From Echinarachnius parma (lineage: Eukaryota; Echinodermata; Echinoidea; Clypeasteroida; Echinarachniidae): a DNA stretch of 64,000 nucleotides. The notes below the pieces were generated by a model. It searched no databases. It saw only the letters and a list, made by a program, of their open reading frames with translations, and had not been told where the DNA came from. The stretch covers positions 55,863-119,862 of the forward strand of contig JBAMJV010003001.1 of the NCBI GenBank assembly GCA_037951105.1. The letters run 5' to 3'. A program made the translations under genes and the position numbers. This document shows positions 21,918 to 64,000 of the stretch, in pieces (position 1 is the first letter of the stretch; each line of letters starts with the position of its first letter).

Positions 21918-24056
21918 GCGCGTAAGTGGGCGAGACACTTTACGGCTATCGCCTTGTTTTAATGCATAAACCTCCTTTGAGAATCCAGGACATGTTTGTG
22001 ATACACCCCCCTGGTTTTGATACATAAACCTCCTTTGTGAATCCAGACCATGTTTGTGAAACACCCCCCTGATTTTGATACATAAACCTCCTTTGTGAAT
22101 CCAGGCCATGTTTGTGATACACCCCCCTGGTTGTAATACATAAACCTCCTTTGTGAATCCAGGCCATGTTTGTGAAACACCCCCCTGGTTTTAATACATA
22201 AACCTCCTTTGTGAATCCAGGCCATGTTTGTGAAACACCCCCCTAGTTTTAATACATAAACCTCCTTCGTGAATCCAGGCCATGTTTGTGAAACACCCCC
22301 CTGGTTTTAATACATAAACCTCCTTTGTGAATCCAGGCCATGTTTGTGAAACACCCCCCTGGTTTTAATACATAAACCTCCTTTGTGAAACACCCCCCTG
22401 GTTTTAATACATAAACCTCCTTTGTGAATCCAGGCCATGTTTGTGAAACACCCCCCTTGTTTTAATACATAAACCTCCTTTGTGAATCCAGGCCATGTTT
22501 GTGAAACACCCCCCTAGTTTTAATACATAAACCTCCTTCGTGAATCCAGGCCATGTTTGTGAAACACCCCCCTGGTTTTAATACATAAACCTCCTTTGTG
22601 AATCCAGGCCATGTTTGTGAAACACCCCCCTGGTTTTAATACATAAACCTCCTTTGTGAAACACCCCCCTGGTTTTAATACATAAACCTCCTTTGTGAAT
22701 CCAGGCCATGTTTGTGAAACACCCCCTTGTTTTAATACATAAACCTCCTTTGTGAATCCAGGCCATGTTTGTGAAACACCCCCCTGATTTTGATACATAA
22801 ACCTCCTTTGTGAATCCAGGCCATGTTTGTGATACACCCCCCTGGTTGTAATACATAAACCTCCTTTGTGAATCCAGGCCATGTTTGTGAAACACCCCCC
22901 TGGTTTTAATACATAAACCTCCTTTGTGAATCCAGGCCATGTTTGTGAAACACCCCCCTGGTTTTAATACATAAACCTCCTTTGTGAATCCAGGCCATGT
23001 TTGTGAAACACCCCCCTAGTTTTAATACATAAACCTCCTTCGTGAATCCAGGCCATGTTTGTGAAACACCCCCCTGGTTTTAATACATAAACCTCCTTTG
23101 TGAATCCAGGCCATGTTTGTGAAACACCCCCCTTGGTTTTAATACATAAACCTCCTTTGTGAAACACCCCCCTGGTTTTAATACATAAACCTCCTTTGTG
23201 AATCCAGGCCATGTTTGTGAAACACCCCCCTGGTTTTAATACATAAACCTCCTTCGTGAATCCAGGCCATGTTTGTGAAACACCCCCCTGGTTTTAATAC
23301 ATAAACCTCCTTTGTGAATCCAGGCCATGTTTGTGAAACACCCCCCTGGTTTTAATACATAAACCTCCTTCGTGAATCCAGGCCATGTTTTTGAAACACC
23401 CCCCTGGTTTTAATACATAAACCTCCTTTGTGAATCCAGGCCATGTTTGTGAAACACCCCCCTGGTTTTAATACATAAACCTCCTTTGTGAAACACCCCC
23501 CTGGTTTTAATACATAAACCTCCTTTGTGAATCCAGGCCATGTTTGTGAAACACCCCCCTTGTTTTAATACATAAACCTCCTTCGTGAATCCAGGCCATG
23601 TTTGTGAAACACCCCCCTGGTTTTAATACATAAACCTCCTTCGTGAATCCAGGCCATGTTTGTGAAACACCCCCCTGGTTTTAATACATAAACCTCCTTT
23701 GTGAATCCAGGCCATGTTTGTGAATCACCCCCCTGATTGTAATACATAAACCTCCTTTGTGAATCCAGGCCATGTTTGTGAATCACCCCCCTGGTTGTAA
23801 TACATAAACCTCCTTTGTGAATCCAGGCCATGTTTGTGAAACACCCCCCTGGTTTTAATACATAAACCTCCTTTGTGAATCCAGGCCATGTTTGTGAAAC
23901 ACCCCCTGGTTTTAATACATAAACCTCCTTTGTGAATCCAGGCCATGTTTGTGATACACCCCCCTGGTTTTAATACATAAACCTCCTTTGTGAATCCAGG
24001 CCATGTTTGTGAAACACCCCCCTTGTTTTAATACATAAACCTCCTTTGTGAATTCC
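21918..24056. repeat. 58-bp satellite array, about 36 units
   Basis: The unit is ACATAAACCTCCTTTGTG, AATCCAGGCCATGTTTGTG, AAACACCCCCCTGGTTTTAAT. Four shortened 39-bp units (near 22380, 22649, 23156 and 23487) lack the stretch between the two TTTGTGAA motifs. Variants TTCGTG, GATACA and GGTTGTAAT recur in blocks, suggesting higher-order amplification. Repetitive open frames on the - strand are artefacts of the array. Confidence 0.97.
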
Positions 24057-24500
24057 AGCCATCTTGTCTATCAACAGTAGATATGAACATGTTGATTCAC
24101 TCTGCCACAGTTTACGCAATTTTTGTAGACCGGAACAACCGTTTCTCTACCTCCTCAGGATTGCATTGTGGGTTACTAGGGGGAACTACATGAACCAATC
24201 ACAGAGTAGGTTCATACGCGTCGTCACTGGATCGAGGTCAATAATACAAGTTCATTTATGCATACGTCACCATGGATCTCATTGTTCTCATACGCGTGAT
24301 AAAATCTAGGGCAGTGCGCAGGAAAATAAGCGTGATAGGCTACGCGCTTCACAGGATGATGATTGGTCAAGTCTTTCTAGGTTAATACGCGATGACGTAG
24401 AGAAACGGTCATCGGAGGCTTCAAAAAAGCGAATCGCTCCGCCATCTTGCCTACATGTATGTACAAAGTATGGGCATGTGACTTGCGCGTGATAAGTGGA
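24057..24500. promoter_or_regulatory. Promoter-like patch: YY1-like, CCAAT and CRE-like motifs
   Basis: CAAGATGGCGG (YY1-type) is on the - strand at about 24441-24451 and a related CAAGATGGCTG at about 24057. CCAAT-type sites are ACCAATCAC (24194) and GATTGGTC (24361). CRE-like TGACGTAG lies at 24393 and several ACGCG CpG motifs occur. After the - strand ATGGCGG an open frame of about 22 codons runs to 24381. It may be an internal or antisense promoter, or merely a CpG-rich repeat. Confidence 0.3.
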
Positions 24501-44934: not shown

Positions 44935-45513
44935 GGGCCGTCACAAATCACAAACCGAGCCCGCCCGACTTCTCTGCGAGCTGAAAAGGGCATTTTCGCC
45001 AGGACTACGGCCGGTGTTCGCGCGAATACTGCGGGCTCCCAAATCAGCGATTTTTAATCGCCGAATTTTGAGGTCGCAGAGCTCGTAAACAGGTCGCCCG
45101 TAGATCGCTCGGGCATCGGCAAACATTCGGTCGATATTCGGGCGACAATCCGAAAACTTTAGACCATTTAAGGGTTCAAAATTCGGACGGACACGGCAGA
45201 GCTGCGCGACCGCCGCACGGCCTCCTTGCGATACTTGACCGACCAACTCCCGTATCCCGCGCGACTTGTACAAAGTCGGTCGTGCTTCGAGCGCGATCCC
45301 TGCTGGTGCCGGGCTGCCGTCGGGCGGCTTCTACGGGCCCCGGTCTATTTATAACCACTTATGTTCAACGGGCGCCTCCCGAGCCCCGTCCAATATGTGA
45401 CAGCGTAGATGTCAAGCAAAAAATACGCTCGACTCCCTGGCGGATTTAAAATTCGGCGACTCTCGGGCGATCTACAAATTCGGCCGGAGTCCGTTTGATT
45501 TGTGACGCAGGCT
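44935..45513. mobile_element. GC-rich TIR element, family G (long copy)
   Basis: TTAA then AGGGGCCGTCACAAATCA on the left, and GATTTGTGACGCAGGC then TTAA on the right, so a TTAA target is likely. The body has CGCAGAGCTCGTAAACAGG, CGCCGCACGGCCTCC and GGCGCCTCCCGAGCCCC. Confidence 0.85.
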
Positions 45514-46094
45514 TAAACAAATTTGTTGAAATCGTACGGCGAGGAAAAATGCAACGGCGACCGCACGATAGCCGCGGCACCCTTGCGGGCGCCGCAAGAT
45601 TCCCGGAAGATTTCACCTAAAAGTGGCATCGTACGGGCGCCGTATTCCAAATCGGAGCATTTGTGACCTATAAGTATCCCGCGCGACTTGTACAAAGTCG
45701 GTCGTGCTTCGAGCGCGAACCCTGCTGGTGCCGGGCTGCCGTCGGGCGGCTTCTACGGGCCCCGGTCGATTTATAATCACTTATGTTCAACGGGCGCCTC
45801 CCGAGCCCCGTCCAATATGTGACAGCGTAGATGTCAAGCGAAAAATACGCTCGACTCCCTGGCGGATTTAAAATTCGGCGACTCTCAGGCGATCTACAAA
45901 TTCGGCCGGAGTCCGTTTGATTTGTGACGCAGGCTTAAACAAATTTGTTGACATCGTACGGCGAGGAAAAATGCAACGGCGACCGAACGATAGCCGCGGC
46001 ACCCTTGCGGGCGCCGCAAGATTCCCGGAAGATTTCACCTAAAAGTGGCATCGTACGGGCGCCGTATTCCAAATCGGAGCATTTGTGACCTAAG
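45253..46094. repeat. 422-bp tandem duplication across the right end of the family G element
   Basis: TATCCCGCGCGACTTGTAC starts at 45253 and again at 45675. The units are nearly identical through GAGCATTTGTGACCTA. The duplication includes the right half of the G element plus flank containing GGCGCCGCAAGATTCCCGG. Confidence 0.95.
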
Positions 46095-47199: not shown

Positions 47200-48180
47200 T
47201 AATTAGAATTCATTGTACACGTCAATAAAATTCTTGATGATTTGAATGCAGTCTTATCATGTACAATCGTAGTAGGTTTTCCATATCAATGTCGTAAGTT
47301 TGTTATTCTCTTATACACAATACCCACGGACTATCATGTAAATATCATCAATTACGTCAATTATAAACCTTGATTGAATGAAATAAGACGTAATTGAATT
47401 GAAACCATGCCATGTTTAATTAGACTGTTAAAGTTATATAATATACAAAGTATTTTTTTCATACAAATGTTGTCTTTCATACCAATGTTATCACCCACGG
47501 ACTGTCAGGATCATCAATGACATCAAGTATTAACCTTGTTTGAATTAAAAGGGATTTAATTGAATAGTAAACAATGACATTCTTAATGAAACTGATGAAG
47601 TTGTATGCATGTACAAAATATGTTTCCATGCCAATATTGTAAGTTTGTGATTATCTTCTATATCACCCACGGACTGTGAGGTTTATATCATCAATGACGT
47701 CAATTATAAACCTTGCTTGAATTAAAAGGGATTTAATTGAATAGTATACAATGCAATTCTTAATGAAACTGATGAAGTTATATTATCATGTACAAAGTAT
47801 GTTTTCCATACCAGTGTTGTAAGTTTGTTATTCCCGTCTAATTTATATCACCCACGGACTGTGAGGTTTATATCATCAATGACGTCAATTATAAACCTTG
47901 CTTGAATTAAAAGGGATTTAATTGAATAGTATACAATGCAATTCTTAATGAAACTGATGAAGTTATATCATGTGCAAAGTATGTTTTCCATACCAATGTT
48001 GTAAGTTTGTTATTCCCGTCTAATTTATATCACCCACGGCCTGTCAGGTTTATATCATCAATGACGTCAAGTATAAACCTTGCTTGAATTAAAGGGGATT
48101 TAATTAAATAGTAAACAATGTAATTCTTAAATAAGCCGATGAAGTTATATCATGTAAGAAATATGTTTTCCATACCAATG
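47200..48180. repeat. ~160-186-bp tandem array with a CRE-like octamer per unit
   Basis: CACCCACGGACTGT marks units near 47333, 47494, 47665, 47851 and 48033. TGACGTCA is perfect at 47695-47702, 47880-47887 and 48062-48069; older units have TTACGTCA and TGACATCA. The rest is AT-rich (GGGATTTAATTGAATAGT). Confidence 0.92.
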
Positions 48181-53118: not shown

Positions 53119-53433
53119 AGAGGAGGAGGAGGAGGAGGAGGAGGAGGAGGAGGAGGAGGAGGAGGAGGAGGAGGAGGAGGAGGAGGAGGAGGAGGAGGAG
53201 GAGGAGGAGGAGGAGGAGGAGGAGGAGGAGGAGGAGGAGGAGGAGGAGGAGGAGGAGGAGGAGGAGGAGGACGAAGAAGAAGAAGAAGAAGAAGAAGAAG
53301 AAGAAGAAGAAGAAGAAGAAGAAGAAGAAGAAGAAGAAGAAGAAGAAGAAGAAGAAGAAGAAGAAGAAGAAGAAGAAGAAGAAGAAGAAGAAGAAGAAGA
53401 AGAAGAAGAAGAAGAAGAAGAAGAAGAAGAAGA
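53119..53433. repeat. (GGA)n then (GAA)n microsatellite
   Basis: About 50 GGA units (53119-53270), an ACGAAG switch, then about 54 GAA units to 53433. The last unit abuts the 3' end of the retrotransposon. Poly-Arg, Lys, Leu and Pro frames are artefacts. Confidence 0.99.
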
Positions 53434-53627
53434 CTTTTCAAAAGGATATCTTTATTTACAAACTATAAATCAAAAGTCAGAAGTTTACAATAAAAGAATA
53501 GTACACAAACGTAAAGTTTGTTTACAAAGGTTATACAAGTATAAACATTGTTACCGAAGTAAACAATGTAAAAACAATACAACGTACATGTAATAACAAA
53601 CGCATCTACATAAGGTAGATGCAAACT

Positions 53628-56600
53628 CTAAAACAACCAAATCAATTTGCAATCATCGAAAAGGAACAGAGTATTATTATGTGACCACGTTTTTAAAAAA
53701 GCATCGACATTGTGGCACAAATGATAATAATGAAATTCATATAAAATCCTGCTTTTTAACCTATGCTGCCAAATAATCACAGGATTGGAAAAAGAATTCG
53801 TACGAAACAAAGTATAAATGACACACTTGCAACTAATGATCAAAAAATTAGCGAGGCGCACCGCCTCCCTGCTACGACCACCTGCACACGGGACAAGGGA
53901 CCAGTATAAATCAAAATTTAAAAGTAAAGATGGGAACAAACGATTCAATAATACGGACAAAAGAGTAAGGACCGGTTGAATGGCCGGGCATTGAATAAAT
54001 AAATGTTCGATTGTACCTGGTGCATCCTTGCACCAGCCGCAGTGTCGCGAAAAAATATCAGGATTTATATGATGCAAAACAGTAAGTGAGGGCAATATAT
54101 TGTGAAAAAGCTTAAACTGGACATCGCCTTCCTTCTTCGACGTCGGTAGCTTGTAGACAAGGGCCCACTGCAGCTTGGTTGACTCGTCGACGGACCCAAT
54201 TCGGTGCCAGTGCGAAACATGGTCGGAAAGTTTGTTAATGATCTTGTTGAACATCCTGTAGATAGATTTTGACGAAGCTTTGCTTCCATTTTCAAGCATC
54301 GGCAAGCAGACGTCGATCGCAACCGATGGGAAAGATGAAATTGTCTGTAGATCCACATGTGTCGATATCTTGCACCCAAGCTCGTTGAACCAGGCTGGAA
54401 ACGCGCTAGCGATGGCAAGGCGCAGGTGCTGGAGTTCGCGGCGGAGGAGACGAAGGGAAGGCGGGCGAAGTCCTTTAAAAAATATATGTAAAGCGGAGGG
54501 GTCAAGCCACAGACCAGACAGGGGGTCAAGCAAGTGGCGGACTAGTTGGGCCCCGCACGCCAAGGGTCGAGCAGGGGGGCAGCAACCAACATAATTATCA
54601 TTTGGTAACAAAAAACAAGTTAATGGCATATTGGCAGCATAATTAAACGAGATAGATCGTGTATCTATACGGGCTCCGGACACCATCCAAGCACGCAAAA
54701 CCTCACCATAAAAAACCGGCAAACTAACAAGAAATTTAGGGTTAATTTCAACGTGAAACAATTGATAATCATAACCCAACTTACAATATTGTCGAAAAAA
54801 ACATTTCATAAAAAGGTAAGCCGGATGTGAAGTAAGATTGAAAAAACGTTGAAGAAAACCGAACCTAAAAGAAAAAACGCGTGCTTGGAGGCAGACTAGA
54901 CCAAGTCCTCCTTTGTCAGGTTGTTCAAAAAGAACTGATTTTTTCAACATATGTCGCTTCTTAGACCACACAAAATCAACAAGTAAATTCTGGAGTTCAT
55001 TTAGAATATTGTCTGGGGGAGAAAGAACCGCTAAACAGTGGAAAACCTTAGAGGCTGCCAGCTGATTTGCAATTAAAACTTTCCCTTTAAAAGACAAAGA
55101 ATAAACAAGCCGAGACCAAGAAGCAAACGTTTTAATTAATTTATCTTTACACTTACTCCAATTCTGACGCACATAATTAATTGTGTTTCCCAAATGAACT
55201 CCAAGAAACGGGAGACCTTCATTATTCCACATAAAATTCAAGGGCGAATCATTGCGCCCCATCCATCGGCCAACCCATAAGCCCTGAGACTTTTGTGTAT
55301 TAAGACAAGCAGCAGAGGCGCGGCTAAACAAATCATAAGCCTTCTCAACCACAGCGAACCCTGGGTCCGAAGTAATAAAAACAGTTACATCATCTGCATA
55401 CGCAGATATAGCACAATTTACATTAGTTCCAGGTATACATAAACCATGATTAATCAAAGTATTCCTTAAAGTAACTAAAAACGGTTCAATTGCAATAGTA
55501 TAGAGTAGTCCTGAGAGGGGGCACCCCTGACGAATCCCCTTCTCAAAAAGGAAGGGGGAAGTCAGTGACCCACTTACTTTTATAAGGCTCTCAGCACCCT
55601 CGTACAAAGTCTGTATATAAAAAATAAAACGATCACCAAACCCCATTTTCTTCATAACGTTGAACAAATAAGAGTGATCCACATTATCAAAAGCCTTTTT
55701 CTGATCTAAATTAATCAAGGCCAAGGGTATATCTTCAGCATTTGCATAAAAAATAGCATCACGAATTAAATTAATATTATCATAAATGGACCGGCCAGGA
55801 ATACAATATGTTTGATCCTCACCAATAACATTGCCAATATATTGCGTTAGCCTGCCAGCCAGCACCTTGGCAAGAATTTTATAATCCGTATTCAAAAGAG
55901 AAACGGGGCGCCAATTTGAAACATCGGCCAAATCTCCTTTTTTAGGGAGCAACGTTATAACTGCCCGTCTAAGAGAGGGAGGCAGAGCCCCTGACTCAAA
56001 CGACGAACAAATAACAGAGAAAAAATCATCACGTAAAGTAGGCCAAAAGACCTGAAAAAATTCTGATGTGAGCCCATCTAAACCGGGCGACTTATTCTTG
56101 CCAAGGTTGTACTGCAACATCAAACTCCTCCTCCGAAAGAGGGTCTTCAAGATCCTCTAACAGGGAGGGGTCATAAACAATGGAATCGGGTAATAAATAT
56201 TCTAGGGCACTCTTATCGACAACAGAAGACGAGTATAAAGACTCATAAAAATTACGAACATGCATTCTTATTTCATTCGGATCTTCTGTTATACAACCAG
56301 AAGGGAGACGAATGCGAGACATATTTTTAGAATTCGAATTCGACTTTTCAAGATTAAAAAAGAAACTAGAACAAGAATCAGACTCATTCGTGTATCTAAA
56401 GCGAGACCTTATGAGAGCACCCTGTGCCTCATTTTTCAATAATAAATTAAGTGCATCTCTTTGTTCAGCAAGTACATTTCTAATCTCAAGAGTAAAGTCT
56501 GGTGTAGACTGAAGTTCATCAATCCTTCTATTAATATCAAATAAAGCTGACCGTTTCTCTTGCCTAATCTTAGAGCTATACATTTGAGTAATAGACTTAA

Positions 56601-57493
56601 TATGAACTTTACCAAAATCCCACCAAGAAGCAACTTCCACAAAATTATTCTTTTCCTTCTGCCAATCTAACCAAAAGGATTTTATAATTTCCCTATAATT
56701 CTCATCCTCTAATAAAGTATTATTAAAGTGCCAATAAGCACTTCCTCCACGAATTGAAGGGGGCTTAAATTTCAACAGCACCGCTGAATGATCAGAAAGG
56801 GAACAAGGAATAATATCACATGAATGAACAGAAGAAAATAAACATAGCGGTACATAAAAAACGATCTAGCCTGGACTTAGAAGCCCCATGAACACTAGCC
56901 GAATTATTTCTAAACCAAGTAAATTTCTTTACACCAGGATTCAATCTACGCCAAGTATCACAAAACGAAAACGAATTAAATACATTCTTCAAAGCAACTG
57001 AAACTTTAGCCCTGTGTTCTACTGACATATGAAAACGATCAAGTACTGGGTTCTCCGTGCAATTAAAATCGCCCCCAATGACAATAGTGCCATCATTACA
57101 GCTAGAAACATGATCATGAAGGGCTGTTATGGTACGTAAAGCCAGCCGATCATCATGGGGGATGAGGGTATTATAAATGTGATATATGGCCCTATTGAAA
57201 CAAATTTTATGATATAAAATATACCCATCACAAACAGAAAGTGAAGACAAACACTCTATTTTTGAGCTATTCAATAACGTTGTGACCCCTGACCCACGAG
57301 AGGAGCTTGGCGAACAAAAAGGAACATAAGACCATTCCCTCCAACAAGAGCTATTTTCATTTAGCTGATAAGTCTCTTGCAAAAAGACTATATCTGGGTT
57401 AGAGGTCAAATGATCAACAAAAACTTTAAAAGACGCATTTTGCGAAATCGCCGAGCACCCACCCGTATTGAGGGTCAGCAGTGACAAAGCCAT
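53628..57493 (-). pseudogene. ORF2 (endonuclease and reverse transcriptase), copy 1, frameshifted
   Basis: Likely start at the ATG of 57493 (MALSLLTLNTGG), the normal opening of an APE-type endonuclease. The endonuclease has LQETY, IGGDFNCTENP and, after a shift, SDHSAVLLKF. The RT has NKSPGLDGL, NLDQKKAFDNVDH, GIRQGCPLSGLL and AYADDVTVF. The C-terminus has a CxxC...H....C knuckle (HCGWCKDAPGTIEHLF). Two breaks are visible against copy 2: one extra A in the run near 56853 (ends a frame at 56816) and a 2-bp loss near 56107. The rest, 56150-53628, is one open frame of about 840 codons. Expected intact length is about 1,290 residues. Confidence 0.9.
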
Positions 57494-57586
57494 CACAAAA
57501 GAAAAACAACCAACCATAAACAGAGCCATACGTAAAAAACAAAAAAAAACAAAAACAACAATCACAAAACCAAAAAACAAGCTAGA

Positions 57587-59142
57587 CTACACGTCTAGCG
57601 TGTTAACTAATTTATAAATCCTCTGTTGCATGCTTTTCTTAAATAGCGGACTATTCTTCAAGGGCTTCAATTGTTTCACTAAACCAGGAATATTGGAAGT
57701 GTATTTGCGAGCTATTTGAGTTGGTTTTTTCCTGCCTTTAACCGAAGCTAAAAACTTAATAATTTCAGAAGCCGACAGGGGGCCTGGTGTGAGGGGGAGA
57801 GTCTCTTCATGTATCGACTCTTCATCAGTCTGGGACTGGGTATCCTCCCAGGTCATAGAGTCAGTGTCTGTCAAGTCTGCGGCGGGGTCCTCGGTCGAGG
57901 ACAATGGGGTGGAGGGGGGTTCAGGAGTTGGGGTGTCGAGGGCCTGTGTAAGCGTAGGGGACTTGTTCACCAAAGGGGTAAGAGACTTCTTCTGCATTTT
58001 CCTCTGAGGGGATGGGGTCTTGAGTGGTGTAAGGGTATTAGAAATCTCTTCTGCAGGTGTGGCTGCAGTCTGTTTCCGCTTGGAGACAACATCCGAAAAG
58101 GACCTCCTGGGCAAGGGAGGTTCACTCCACAAGGGGGGAGTGGGTTTGGGGGAGCCAAGTTTATGAGATGGGGAGGGACCCCCATCACCCTCACGTACAG
58201 CATCAATCTGGGGACCCTTAACCCCCGATGGACTGGGTGGAAGGGCTGATGAAGCTACAGAGGATGGTGGGTTCAGCGAGGAGCAAGAAGGCTGGGGGGA
58301 GGTGGGACGCAAAGGGCCGGATTGGGGCACCTCAACAGGAGGGGGCGCGTCACGAGCTAAACTAGCAGTCATCCCAACAAGGGGAGGCGGGGGGAGGGGG
58401 CAGTGTGCTTCACTCCAGTAGCGGGGGTCGGCCCGAGGGGGGGTCGGTCGTCTGTCGAAGTAGTAGGTTTGTTCAAAGTCGTAGGGGGTGGGGCAATGTT
58501 GGCTTGAGATTTCGGCTTTTTGCATGAGCGCGAAATATGTCCAAATTCCCCACAATTTAAAGCACCGTGCAGACTCCGTAGACAAACACACGATAATTAG
58601 TACCCGAGTGGGTAAAATTAATATGGTCGGGAGGGGTAACATTTGGATTCATGAGCACTTGAACTTGTCTCCGGAAGCTCATTACATGTGTGAGCTTCTT
58701 ATTCTTCAACCCTAGTGAATGGGCCTACATTGAGAGACAACCTTACAAAACGAACCTATATTCTCAACTAAGACAGAATTCGGTATCTCTGGGTACACAT
58801 TAGACAAAATGAGCTTAGTGGTGGGGCGTACGAGAGGGGTTAATTCGATGAAAGCCCCCTCGTAATTCAATCCACGATTCACAGCACGCACCACTGACTC
58901 TTTGGAATTAAGATAGATAGCAATGCGACCGTTCGAGATTCGAGAAGCAGAGACAATATGCTCAGGTGGAATGTTCTGTACGAACGCATCAATGTACGTT
59001 TGAATCGAGACATTGTTAATGGCGCTAAAAGAAACCCCATTGTCCTCGTTACGAGTTTAAACTGTTCAACACCTACAATAGTAGGGTTACCAATAGGGCC
59101 TTGTGCCTGGCCCTGTACATGGCGATCCGATCGGCCTGCCAT
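57587..59142 (-). pseudogene. ORF1 (nucleic-acid-binding Gag-like), copy 1, frameshifted
   Basis: It starts at the ATG of 59142 (MAGRSDRHVQGQAQG) and stops at 57587, 94 bp before the chosen ORF2 start. The N-terminal half, in two frames, has an RRM-like pattern (SRISNGRIAIYLNSKESVV, LILSNVYPEIPN). A CCHC zinc knuckle follows near 58530-58565: its first Cys lies in one frame and the remaining C, H and C in the next, so a single-base change breaks it. The C-terminal half is Pro/Ser/Thr-rich and ends in a basic segment (RKKPTQIARKY). Further frame changes occur near 59040, 58715 and 58400. Confidence 0.75.
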
Positions 59143-59357
59143 ACAGCACAGCCAATACGAAAAGCAACACACAACCAAAAAAAAAAAACACCTCAAAATA
59201 CGGAAAAATTAATAAACCTGACAAAGCGAGACTGGTCTAAAGTAATCAGTGCATCAAAAAGATACAACCTATAAAAAAATCAAGGACCACGAAGGTCAAA
59301 AACACCCACACAAAAAAACAAATCCGGAGCCTAAAAAATACACGACCTACCTCAAAA
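59143..59357 (-). promoter_or_regulatory. 5' leader of retrotransposon copy 1
   Basis: About 215 bp between the (TTC)n junction and the ORF1 start. In non-LTR elements this region normally carries the internal promoter. No motif here proves it. It is A/C-rich on the + strand, with several A-runs. Confidence 0.35.
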
Positions 59358-59699
59358 GAAGAAGAAGAAGAAGAAGAAGAAGAAGAAGAAGAAGAAGAAG
59401 AAGAAGAAGAAGAAGAAGAAGAAGAAGAAGAAGAAGAAGAAGAAGAAGAAGAAGAAGAAGAAGAAGAAGAAAGAAGAAGAAGAAGAAGAAGAAGAAGAAG
59501 AAGAAGAAGAAGAAGAAGAAGAAGAAGAAGAAGAAGAAGAAGAAGAAGAAGAAGAAGAAGAAGAAGAAGAAGAAGAAGAAGAAGAAGAAGAAGAAGAAGA
59601 AGAAGAAGAAGAAGAAGAAGAAGAAGAAGAAGAAGAAGAAGAAGAAGAAGAAGAAGAAGAAGAAGAAGAAGAAGAAGAAGAAGAAGAAGAAGAAGAAGA
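59358..59699. repeat. (GAA)n microsatellite between the two retrotransposons
   Basis: About 113 GAA units with one phase slip (GAAAGAAG near 59468). It directly abuts the 5' end of copy 1 and the 3' end of copy 2. Confidence 0.99.
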
Positions 59700-59894
59700 C
59701 TTTTCAAAAGGATATCTTTATTTACAAACTATAAATCAAAAGTCAGAAAGTTTACAATAAAAGAATAGTACACAAACGTAAAGTTTGTTTACAAAGGTAA
59801 TACAAGTATAAACATTGTTACCGAAGTAAACAATGTAAAAACAATACAACGTACATGTAATAACAAACGCATCTACATAAGGTAGATGCAAACT

Positions 59895-62800
59895 CTAAAA
59901 CAACCAAATCAATTTGCAATCATCGAAAAGGAACAGAGTATTATTATGTGACCACGATTTTAAAAAAGCATCGACATTGTGGCACAAATGATAATAATGA
60001 AATTCATATAAAATCCTGCTTTTTAACCGATGCTGCCAAATAATCACAGGATTGGAAAAAGAATTCGTACGAAACAAAGTATAAATGACACACTTGCAAC
60101 TAATGATCAAAAAATTAGCGAGGCGCACCGCCTCCCTGCTACGACCACCTGCGCACGGGACAAGGGACCAGTATAAATCAAAATTTAAAAGTAAAGATGG
60201 GAACAAACGATTCAATAATACGGACAAAAGAGTAAGGACCGGTTGAATGGCCGGGCATTGAATAAATAAATGTTCGATTGTACCTGTGCATCCTTGCACC
60301 AGCCGCAGTGTCGCGAAAAAATATCAGGATTTATATGATGCAAAACAGTAAGTGAGGGCAATATATTGTGAAAAAGCTTAAACTGGACATCGCCTTCCTT
60401 CTTCGACGTCGGTAGCTTGTAGACAAGGGCCCACTGCAGCTTGGTTGACTCGTCGACGGACCAATTCGGTGCCAGTGCGAAACATGGTCGGAAAGTTTGT
60501 TAATGATCTTGTTGAACATCCTGTAGATAGATTTTGACGAAGCTTTGCTTCCATTTTCAAGCATCGGCAAGCAGACGTCGATCGCAACCGATGGAAAGAT
60601 GAAATTGTCTGTAGATCCACATGTGTCGATATCTTGCACCCAAGCTCGTTGAACCAGGCTGGAAACGCGCTAGCGATGGCAAGGCGCAGGTGCTGGAGTT
60701 CGCGGCGGAGGAGACGAAGGGAAGGCGGGCGAAGTCCTTTAAAAAATATATGTAAAGCGGAGGGGTCAAGCCACAGACCAGACAGGGGGTCAAGCAAGTG
60801 GCGGACTAGTTGGGCCCCGCACGCCAAGGGTCGAGCAGGGGGGCAGCAACCAACATAATTATCATTAGGTAACAAAAAACAAGTTAATGGCATATTGGCA
60901 GCATAATTAAACGAGATAGATCGTGTATCTATACGGGCTCCGGACACCATCCAAGCACGCAAAACCTCACCATAAAAAAACCGGCAAACTAACAAGAAAT
61001 TTAGGGTTAATTTCAACGTGAAACAATTGATAATCATAACCCAACTTACAATATTGTCGAAAAAAACATTTCATAAAAAGGTAAGCCGAATGTGAAGTAA
61101 GATTAAAAAAACGTTGAAGAAAACCGAACCTAAAAGAAAAAACGCGTGCTTGGAGGCAAACTAGACCAAGTCCTCCTTTGTCAGGTTGTTCAAAAAGAAC
61201 TGATTTTTTTCAACATATGTCGCTTCTTAGACCACACAAAATCAACAAGTAAATTCTGGAGTTCATTTAGAATATTGTCTGGGGGAGAAAGAACCGCTAA
61301 ACAGTGGAAAACCTTAGAGGCTGCCAGCTGATTTGCAATTAAAACTTTCCCTTTAAAAGACAAAGAATAAACAAGCCGAGACCAAGAAGCAAACGTTTTA
61401 ATTAATTTATCTTTACACTTACTCCAATTCTGACGCACATAATTAATTGTGTTTCCCAAATGAACTCCAAGAAACGGGAGACCTTCATTATTCCACATAA
61501 AATTCAAGGGCGAATCATTGCGCCCCATCCATCGGCCAACCCATAAGCCCTGAGACTTTTGTGTATTAAGACAAGCAGCAGAGGCGCGGCTAAACAAATC
61601 ATAAGCCTTCTCAACCACAGCGAACCCTGGGTCCGAAGTAATAAAAACAGTTACATCATCTGCATACGCAGATATAGCACAATTTACATTAGTTCCAGGT
61701 ATACATAAACCATGATTAATCAAAGTATTCCTTAAAGTAACTAAAAACGGTTCAATTGCAATAGTATAGAGTAGTCCTGAGAGGGGGCACCCCTGACGAA
61801 TCCCCTTCTCAAAAAGGAAGGGGGAAGTCAGTGACCCACTTACTTTTATAAGGCTCTCAGCACCCTCGTACAAAGTCTGTATATAAAAAATAAAACGATC
61901 ACCAAACCCCATTTTCTTCATAACGTTGAACAAATAAGAGTGATCCACATTATCAAAAGCCTTTTTCTGATCTAAATTAATCAAGGCCAAGGGTATATCT
62001 TCAGCATTTGCATAAAAAATAGCATCACGAATTAAATTAATATTATCATAAATGGACCGGCCAGGAATACAATATGTTTGATCCTCACCAATAACATTGC
62101 CAATATATTGCGTTAGCCTGCCAGCCAGCACCTTGGCAAGAATTTTATAATCCGTATTCAAAAGAGAAACGGGGCGCCAATTTGAAACATCGGCCAAATC
62201 TCCTTTTTTAGGGAGCAACGTTATAACTGCCCGTCTAAGAGAGTGAGGCAGAGCCCCTGACTCAAACGACGAACAAATAACAGAAAAAAAATCATCACGT
62301 AAAGTAGGCCAAAAGACCTGAAAAAATTCTGATGTGAGCCCATCTAAACCGGGCGACTTATTCTTGCCAAGGTGCTGTACTGCAACATCAAACTCCTCCT
62401 CCGAAAGAGGGTCTTCAAGATCCTCTAACAGGGAGGAGTCATAAACAATGGAATCGGGTAATAAATATTCTAGGGCACTCTTATCGACAACAGAAGACGA
62501 GTATAAAGACTCATAAAAATTACGAACATGCATTCTTATTTCATTCGGATCTTCTGTTATACAACCAGAAGGGAGACGAATGCGAGACATATTTTTAGAA
62601 TTCGAATTCGACTTTTCAAGATTAAAAAAGAAACTAGAACAAGAATCAGACTCATTCGTGTATCTAAAGCGAGACCTTATGAGAGCACCCTGTGCCTCAT
62701 TTTTCAATAATAAATTAAGTGCATCTCTTTGTTCAGCAAGTACATTTCTAATCTCAAGAGTAAAGTCTGGTGTAGACTGAAGTTCATCAATCCTTCTATT

Positions 62801-63760
62801 AATATCAAATAAAGCTGACCGTTTCTCTTGCCTAATCTTAGAGCTATACATTTGAGTAATAGACTTAATATGAACTTTACCAAAATCCCACCAAGAAGCA
62901 ACTTCCACAAAATTATTCTTTTCCTTCTGCCAATCTAACCAAAAGGATTTTATAATTTCCCTATAATTCTCATCCTCTAATAAAGTATTATTAAAGTGCC
63001 AATAAGCACTTCCTCCACGAATTGAAGGGGGCTTAAATTTCAACAGCACCGCTGAATGATCAGAAAGGGAACAAGGAATAATATCACATGAATGAACAGA
63101 AGAAAATAAACATAGCGGTACATAAAAACGATCTAGCCTGGACTTAGAAGCCCCATGAACACTAGCCGAATTATTTCTAAACCAAGTAAATTTCTTTACA
63201 CCAGGATTCAATCTACGCCAAGTATCACAAAGCGAAAACGAATTAAATACATTCTTCAAAGCAACTGAAACTTTAGCCCTGTGTTCTACTGACATATGAA
63301 AACGATCAAGTACTGGGTTCTCCGTGCAATTAAAATCGCCCCCAATGACAATAGTGCCATCATTACAGCTAGAAACATGATCATGAAGGGCTGTTATGGT
63401 ACGTAAAGCCAGCCGATCATCATGGGGGATGAGGGTATTATAAATGTGATATATGGCCCTATTGAAACAAATTTTATGATATAAAATATACCCATCACAA
63501 ACAGAAAGTGAAGACAAACACTCTATTTTTGAGCTATTCAATAACGTTGTGACCCCTGACCCACGAGAGGAGCTTGGCGAACAAAAAGGAACATAAGACC
63601 ATTCCCTCCAACAAGAGCTATTTTCATTTAGCTGATAAGTCTCTTGCAAAAAGACTATATCTGGGTTAGAGGTCAAATGATCAACAAAAACTTTAAAAGA
63701 CGCATTTTGCGAAATCGCCGAGCACCCACCCGTATTGAGGGTCAGCAGTGACAAAGCCAT
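59895..63760 (-). pseudogene. ORF2 (endonuclease and reverse transcriptase), copy 2, frameshifted in the C-terminus
   Basis: The endonuclease and RT are in one open frame from the ATG at 63760 down to 61190 (residue numbers here count from the upstream Met at 63844). Endonuclease residues: E68 in LQETY, D170/N172 in GGDFN and D262/H263 in SDH. RT: D625 in NLDQKKAFD and YADD at 727-730. Downstream, five one-base differences from copy 1 break the frame: an extra T near 61203, an extra A near 60972 and single-base losses near 60462, 60594 and 60286. The zinc knuckle and C-terminal tail are thus out of frame. Both copies could be inactive, or these shifts could be consensus errors. Confidence 0.9.
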
Positions 63761-63850
63761 CACAAAAGAAAAACAACCAACCATAAACAGAGCCATACGT
63801 AAAAAACAAAAAAAAAAAAAACAACAATCACAAAACCAAAACAAGCTAGA

Positions 63851-64000
63851 CTACACGTCTAGCGTGTTAACTAATTTATAAATCCTCTGTTGCATGCTTT
63901 TCTTAAATAGCGGACTATTCTTCAAGGGCTTCAATTGTTTCACTAAACCAGGAATATTGGAAGTGTATTTGCGAGCTATTTGAGTTGGTTTTTTCCTGCC
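63851..64000 (-). pseudogene. ORF1 3' end, copy 2 (partial)
   Basis: The last 50 codons of ORF1, ending NTLDV and TAG as in copy 1. The rest lies beyond the window, so its integrity is unknown. Confidence 0.8.

Follow-up and report, generated by a model that had tools for sequence, protein, structure and literature searches.

Two L1-like elements in one microsatellite

The DNA considered here is a stretch of 64,000 nucleotides (nt) from Echinarachnius parma (the window), which covers positions 55863-119862 of contig JBAMJV010003001.1 (C3000) in an assembly of 1.2 Gb and 14,790 contigs. The last part of the window contains two copies of a retrotransposon placed head to tail inside a (GAA)n microsatellite, which reads (TTC)n on the strand of the element (Table 1). 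The end of the window is also the end of the contig (119862 bases) and falls inside copy 2, so that a part of this array is missing from the assembly.

A first reading of the letters of this DNA (the sequence-only reading) had described two near-identical elements of the non-long terminal repeat (non-LTR) type in this arrangement, with both 3' ends meeting the repeat at the same base and the 5' end of copy 1 adjoining the repeat as well. The description is accurate in each of these respects. Over 4308 aligned columns, the two copies are separated by 12 substitutions and 12 gap columns. On the forward strand, the (GAA)n of 53273-53431 is followed at the 3' end of copy 1 by GAC/TTTTC... (the slash marks the join), and the 3' join of copy 2, GAC/TTTTC... 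at 59700, is identical to it to the base. The 5' join of copy 1 reads ...CCTCAAAA/(GAA)n, with the repeat starting directly at 59358. On the element strand, both 3' ends in the window read ...TTTTGAAAAGTC/TTCTTC, and TTCTTC/TTTTGAGGTAGG stands at the 5' end of copy 1. The repeat between the copies (59358-59697) carries a single extra A at 59472.

The coding content is best read from copy 2. Its frame of 886 amino acids (aa) matches PF03372 (apurinic/apyrimidinic or APE-type endonuclease, 1.5e-8) and then PF00078 (reverse transcriptase, 2.3e-32), and its best relatives among solved structures are L1 ORF2p chains (residues 34-882, 4.3e-67), with R2 far behind at about 4e-20. The active-site letters N, QET, GDFN, D and SDH of the endonuclease align with the L1 endonuclease (L1-EN). 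The best match of the endonuclease is the engineered L1 chimera LTX (29.2 bits), at a small margin from an L1 endonuclease (26.4) and LR1 (23.0); LTX carries a Tx1 hairpin. The reading frames are interrupted in both window copies, and in copy 1 the frame of the second open reading frame (ORF2) is broken between the reverse transcriptase piece and the endonuclease piece. At other places in the genome, four of eight loci (L041-L044) have an ORF1 that remains open as far as the sequence was fetched, and the L041 frame contains a CCHC zinc knuckle (PF00098, 1.7e-5). A blastn search of copy 1 against the window returns copy 1 itself and copy 2 only, so that there is no long terminal repeat. From their predicted content, the elements are L1-like (APE-type) non-LTR retrotransposons with an APE endonuclease and a reverse transcriptase in one ORF2.

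Table 1. Features of the two elements and of the surrounding repeats, in window positions.
Feature	Position	Strand	Remarks
(GAG)n microsatellite	53120..53271		outside the (GAA)n, beside the target array
(GAA)n, (TTC)n on the element strand	53273..53431		downstream of copy 1
3'-terminal GTC of copy 1	53432..53434	-	usual letters before TTC; two letters ambiguous with the repeat
Copy 1, full-length L1-like non-LTR element, about 5.92 kb	53434..59357	-	(TTC)n at both ends
Copy 1 ORF2 piece, reverse transcriptase and C-terminal zf-RVT-like stretch	53628..56156	-	RVT_1 1.1e-32; zf-RVT 23.2 bits, below the cut-off of 27.5
Copy 1 ORF2 piece, APE-type endonuclease region	56816..57586	-	sequence same as the copy 2 endonuclease
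Copy 1 ORF1 region, divided among frames	57587..59208	-	CCHC zinc knuckle known from open copies elsewhere
(GAA)n, (TTC)n on the element strand	59358..59697		between the 5' end of copy 1 and the 3' end of copy 2
Copy 2, incomplete at the contig end	59700..64000	-	5' part absent from the assembly
Copy 2 ORF2 frame, 886 aa	61190..63850	-	APE endonuclease, then reverse transcriptase (YADD)

Joins of the family across the genome

The 3' ends of the family were searched with a 26-nt pattern at up to 3 mismatches, which gives 112 places (reversed control, 0); the counts below cover the 100 that were examined. The 5' ends were searched with a 28-nt pattern, which gives 36 places (control, 0), all of them examined. 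The larger number of 3' ends and the presence of truncated copies correspond to a constant 3' end with 5' truncation.

At the 3' side, (TTC)2 or more begins within 60 nt of the end in 98/100 cases, and an unbroken run of at least 8 TTC units lies within 350 nt in 73/100. The letters GTC stand immediately before the first TTC pair (GTC/TTC) in 77/100. Over the 30 nt that follow the end, 84 places are at least 80% TTC, 14 are mixed, one is (CTTT)n and one is (GTA)n. The tails of the elements have two units in most cases, AAAAGTC and then usually A(3-9)GTC, and other shortened forms exist. The one-unit tail AAAAGTC is found at five of the 100 ends, both window copies included.

At the 5' side, a TTC or TTC-like tract precedes the element in all 36 cases. 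The match to TTC over 30 nt reaches at least 80% in 34 of them, at least 8 TTC units lie within 350 nt in 35, and the exact join TTC/TTTTGA is present in 31. The element has a single orientation relative to the repeat, and 24 pairs among the ends listed have the spacing of a full-length copy (5.7-6.1 kb).

Counted with overlaps, the 24-mer (GAA)8 matches 40,594 times on one strand of the 1.2 Gb and 41,216 times on the other, and by arithmetic from these counts a randomly chosen point would have such a match within 350 nt on a given side in at most about 1.2% of cases. With 98 of 100 3' ends and every 5' end beside TTC or TTC-like sequence, chance is excluded. The sequence-only reading had proposed a TTC-targeting lineage and a tabulation of the joins over all genomic copies, and it would have been contradicted by a majority of copies flanked by non-microsatellite sequence. 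The tabulation agrees with the proposed target at both joins, and no such majority is found among the 100 3' ends and 36 5' ends.

The same reading had regarded the lineage as recently active, and the divergence of the copies agrees with this. Among 30 loci with upstream sequence, 19 (both window copies included) align to copy 1 over the full last 1526 nt at 98.2-100%, with a mean pairwise substitution of 0.7% and a star-like pattern. The remaining 11 loci are truncated or diverged; directly upstream of the break stands TTC in L012, L014, L019 and L035, and the break is near TTC or TTC-like sequence in L016, L028, L029 and L034. In a protein search for ORF2, 51 of 12,814 candidates were scored, so that the counts are lower bounds; at least 16 of its 54 rows have frames without stops that are 1307-1322 aa long and 98-99% identical. 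These values support a young and recently active TTC-targeting family.

The microsatellite as the target

A (TTC)n beside a 3' end could also be made by the element, as a 3' tail that arises from slippage of the reverse transcriptase, as in some long interspersed nuclear elements with simple-repeat tails. The 3' tail A(n)GTC is itself a variable short repeat, and slippage may occur there. As the origin of the (TTC)n, slippage was rejected and is hardly credible, since all 36 5' ends also follow TTC or TTC-like tracts, the truncated copies L012, L014, L019 and L035 have TTC immediately upstream as well, and the TTC array is present where the element is absent. This last point comes from an insertion in C1268, the 3' flank of which recurs beside a TTC array in four element-free paralogues (C4012 twice, C7842 and C7364; about 0.6 kb read at each place). 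The CATC interruption seen after the C1268 element is present in two of the four. Consequently, the TTC is the target of the element and not a tail that the element carries.

Another arrangement is found in C712, where a flank of 1.24 kb stands on both sides of a full-length insertion (0 mismatches and 2 gap openings over 1245 columns). The second copy of the flank ends in a TTC array without an element, and the breakpoint is at the edge of the array (L172-L174, L013, L182; C712:140980-149668). The doubling of this flank is either a tandem duplication or a matter of the assembly. For the flank of the window locus, no second near-identical place that might represent an empty site of the other haplotype was found in the assembly, only an adjoining partial repeat at 86% on that contig.

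A sister family with the same target

A sister family accounts for 12 of the 54 rows of the protein search, with amino-acid identities of 55-58%. Six sister 3' regions were fetched; five of them end in ...GTAAATAAAGTTATCCTTTGAAAAGTC(A)nGTC/TTC, and the sixth (C1763) is broken earlier. The sister 5' ends lie in TTC in C604 and C10918, and in C11919 the copy extends past the end of its contig. A search at up to 2 mismatches gives 102 places with sister-type 3' ends (control, 0), and in 50 of 64 exact short matches CTTCTT follows with no more than 12 nt in between (the distinct starts were counted by eye). Within 0.35 kb of C12751 (28842-29185) stand four sister 3' ends, from very short truncated copies that follow one another in a single TTC array.

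Sister copies ending in AAAAGTA, together with L099 of the window family, had suggested a sub-lineage that targets (GTA)n; this was rejected on the fetched AAAAGTA copies. Of the 21 such ends in the list 20 were fetched: in 14, (TTC)2 or more follows GTC directly, in five others it lies within 34 nt, and in L191 TTC occurs once.

Just past the 3' flank of the sister copy in C604 (L161, about 160090-160300), the (TTC)n passes into an inverted copy of itself, (GAA)n; this is either a large palindrome or a fold-back of the assembly.

Head-to-tail arrays

The sequence-only reading had the lineage building tandem arrays by insertion in the microsatellite, and this stands in part. The arrays are recurrent: seven 3' ends have another end on the same strand within the next 1.5 kb (C801, C1268, C3000, C12171, C12816, C10506 and C1853). 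None of the 92 contigs with listed ends carries ends of the window family on both strands; in the sister list, C3104 has ends on both strands, 23 kb apart. In C14326 the TTC at the end of a sister copy continues to the 5' end of a window-family copy, and in C10918 a window-family copy is followed by TTC and then by a sister 5' end. In C801 and C1268 a young copy adjoins a truncated copy of 85% identity. Neighbours of different lineages, as in these four contigs, need separate insertions, and growth of arrays by insertion is shown in such cases only.

On the other hand, the nine pairs of same-strand 3' ends less than 12 kb apart have identical tails in six cases, the window pair included, a number that 0 of 100,000 random draws reach. 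For some pairs this indicates tandem duplication or an exchange of sequence. The identical-tail pair of C11954 also shares its flank and is thus a duplicated segment. The identical-tail pair of C1268 consists of two sub-lineages, so that equal tails are no proof of duplication. In C10506 (L102/L103), two neighbours, scored at 95% and 99% against the window ORF2, share the odd tail AAAAAAGTC, which suggests an exchange of 3' ends between them.

For the two copies in the window, tandem duplication of one copy, by unequal exchange or by replication slippage in the TTC array, and double insertion are about equally likely. A duplication would fit the rare tail on both copies, the frequency of identical tails among the close pairs and the flank that is duplicated around the TTC array in C712. 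However, within the last 1526 nt the two copies have no derived substitution in common, and each of them has several closer relatives among the other copies than its neighbour. In a star-like family, this pattern is expected under duplication and double insertion alike. Further points against duplication are the arrays of different lineages, which need separate insertions, and the tail-identical pair of C1268 with its two sub-lineages.

The pair could also be an artefact of the assembly, with copies from different places joined via the 340-nt simple repeat and the contig breaking inside copy 2. A contig end within a copy is the usual sign of an unresolved repeat. Nevertheless, the same arrangement is found away from contig ends elsewhere, including the unmistakable mixed-family pairs of C10918 and C14326, and we regard an artefact as improbable.

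Interpretation and proposed mechanism

The reading that we prefer, with a probability of about 0.93, is a young L1-like family (APE endonuclease and reverse transcriptase) with (TTC)n/(GAA)n microsatellites as the specific sites of its integration, which proceeds by target-primed reverse transcription. Its basis is direct observation of the target with a near-constant phase of the 5' and 3' joins, of an element-free TTC array, of one orientation, of recent spread, of a sister with the same target and 3' end and of mixed arrays.

Several points weigh against it. Two of the 100 3' ends lack a TTC join, L030 passing into (CTTT)n and L099 into (GTA)n. The upstream break lies outside TTC in three of the 11 truncated or diverged copies (L017, L020 and L030), and the truncated sister copy in C84 has its upstream break in non-TTC sequence. 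A target-site duplication, if any, is hidden by the flanking repeat. The left side of the C1268 array is unlike the element-free paralogues, so that the comparison is one-sided and concerns one insertion, and no single locus offers a complete comparison of filled and empty sites. Finally, the window pair shares the tail AAAAGTC, present at 5/100 ends, and six of nine close pairs have identical tails, so that the window pair need not stem from serial insertion.

Under target-primed integration, the endonuclease would nick the (GAA)n strand at a fixed phase, which the joins place at GAA^GAA with an uncertainty of two bases. The RNA, with A(n)GUC and perhaps a read-through (UUC)n at its end, would then pair with the GAA primer and be copied. 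The other (TTC) strand would be cut at a fixed phase as well, yielding TTC/TTTTGAGG. The exact letters of the cuts are masked by the repeat. A 3' stem (GACTTT...AAAGTC) appears in three of nine single folds (copy 1 and the sister copies L157 and L159) and not in the other six, and its paired letters hardly vary. Arrays would grow because, after each insertion, TTC flanks the element on either side and can receive the next. They may also enlarge by tandem duplication or by exchange between copies, and the window pair may be so explained. A role of the microsatellite as a safe landing site is plausible.

A wider scheme, tentative and rather unlikely as a whole, would have two lineages, about 56% identical in ORF2, keep the same microsatellite home and the same A(n)GTC/TTC joint, presumably through pairing of a (UUC) RNA end with the nicked (GAA). 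Mixed arrays would grow by insertion and recombination, neighbours would exchange their 3' ends, and the microsatellite would be a stable habitat shared over long evolutionary time.

The family offers an unusually clean natural experiment, with dozens of near-identical insertions, both joins readable, open frames and a divergent sister that has the same target. How an L1-type APE endonuclease reads a triplet repeat, and whether pairing between the RNA end and the primer sets the joint, can both be tested on it. The family also illustrates how arrays inside microsatellites can be founded by target-specific elements, which bears on repeat instability and on breaks in assemblies.

Other sequence features

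A short non-autonomous family starting with TTCTAT/ATCACATC was considered and rejected: of its 19 places most are ordinary internal sequence, and the fused start is present in three only. The window also contains a large 58-bp minisatellite at 21952-24062 (unit TTTGTGAAACACCCCCCTGG..., with many sub-periods) and tandem arrays at 265-1850 (463-bp unit), 45252-46092 (422-bp) and 47489-48180 (182-bp).

One mitochondrial-like COX1 was found in the assembly, on C14600 (L183), with 14 in-frame TGA codons. The residues conserved in other animals are obtained with AAA as Asn (one codon), ATA as Ile (18) and AGA as Ser (4). The code would tentatively be of the echinoderm type, with a single AAA codon to judge by, and by this gene the host would be an echinoderm or, possibly, a hemichordate.

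Comparison with known systems

Mutsu and Dewa are members of the Tx1 group. Kibi and Koshi are microsatellite-specific, and Koshi is specific for TTC. A literature search found no open paper on the sequences or the TTC target of Koshi and Kibi. By that description, Koshi and the present family would have the same target, and they may or may not be kin. The Tx1 group (Tx1, Keno, Mutsu and Dewa), to which the present family may or may not belong, resembles it in having an APE endonuclease and sequence-specific insertion into repeated DNA. As described in PMC4640811, the target-specific elements of the Tx1 clade encode an APE-type endonuclease, both the Tx1 and the R1 clade contain target-specific APE elements, and microsatellites are among the known targets. 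The targets given in PMC3706591 are 5S for Mutsu, U2 for Keno and a tRNA-Leu spacer for Dewa.

Human L1 ORF2p has the same order of endonuclease and reverse transcriptase, and it aligns with the copy 2 frame over the residues given above, with the active-site letters of the endonuclease aligned. In contrast to L1, for which the L1-EN consensus is given as TTTTT/AA (PMC8565326), the present family has a strict TTC target and an A(n)GTC tail. A further difference from L1 is the CCHC zinc knuckle in the ORF1 of the present family.

Insertion into microsatellites is shared with Togen, which inserts into (TG)n, and with some HERO families; the endonuclease of HERO is restriction-like, and Togen is a relative of NeSL (PMC4640811). 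The present family differs from both by its APE-type endonuclease. Utopia-1_NVit, the U2-gene-specific copies of which occasionally occur in tandem (PMC4640811), has tandem target-specific copies in common with the present family and differs in the endonuclease type and the target.

As expected of a microsatellite-targeting element, the same repeat stands on both flanks, and the repeat is also found without the element, the latter on one side and for one insertion. A repeat-specific type of retrotransposon is already known, and the present family is an additional and unusually clear case.

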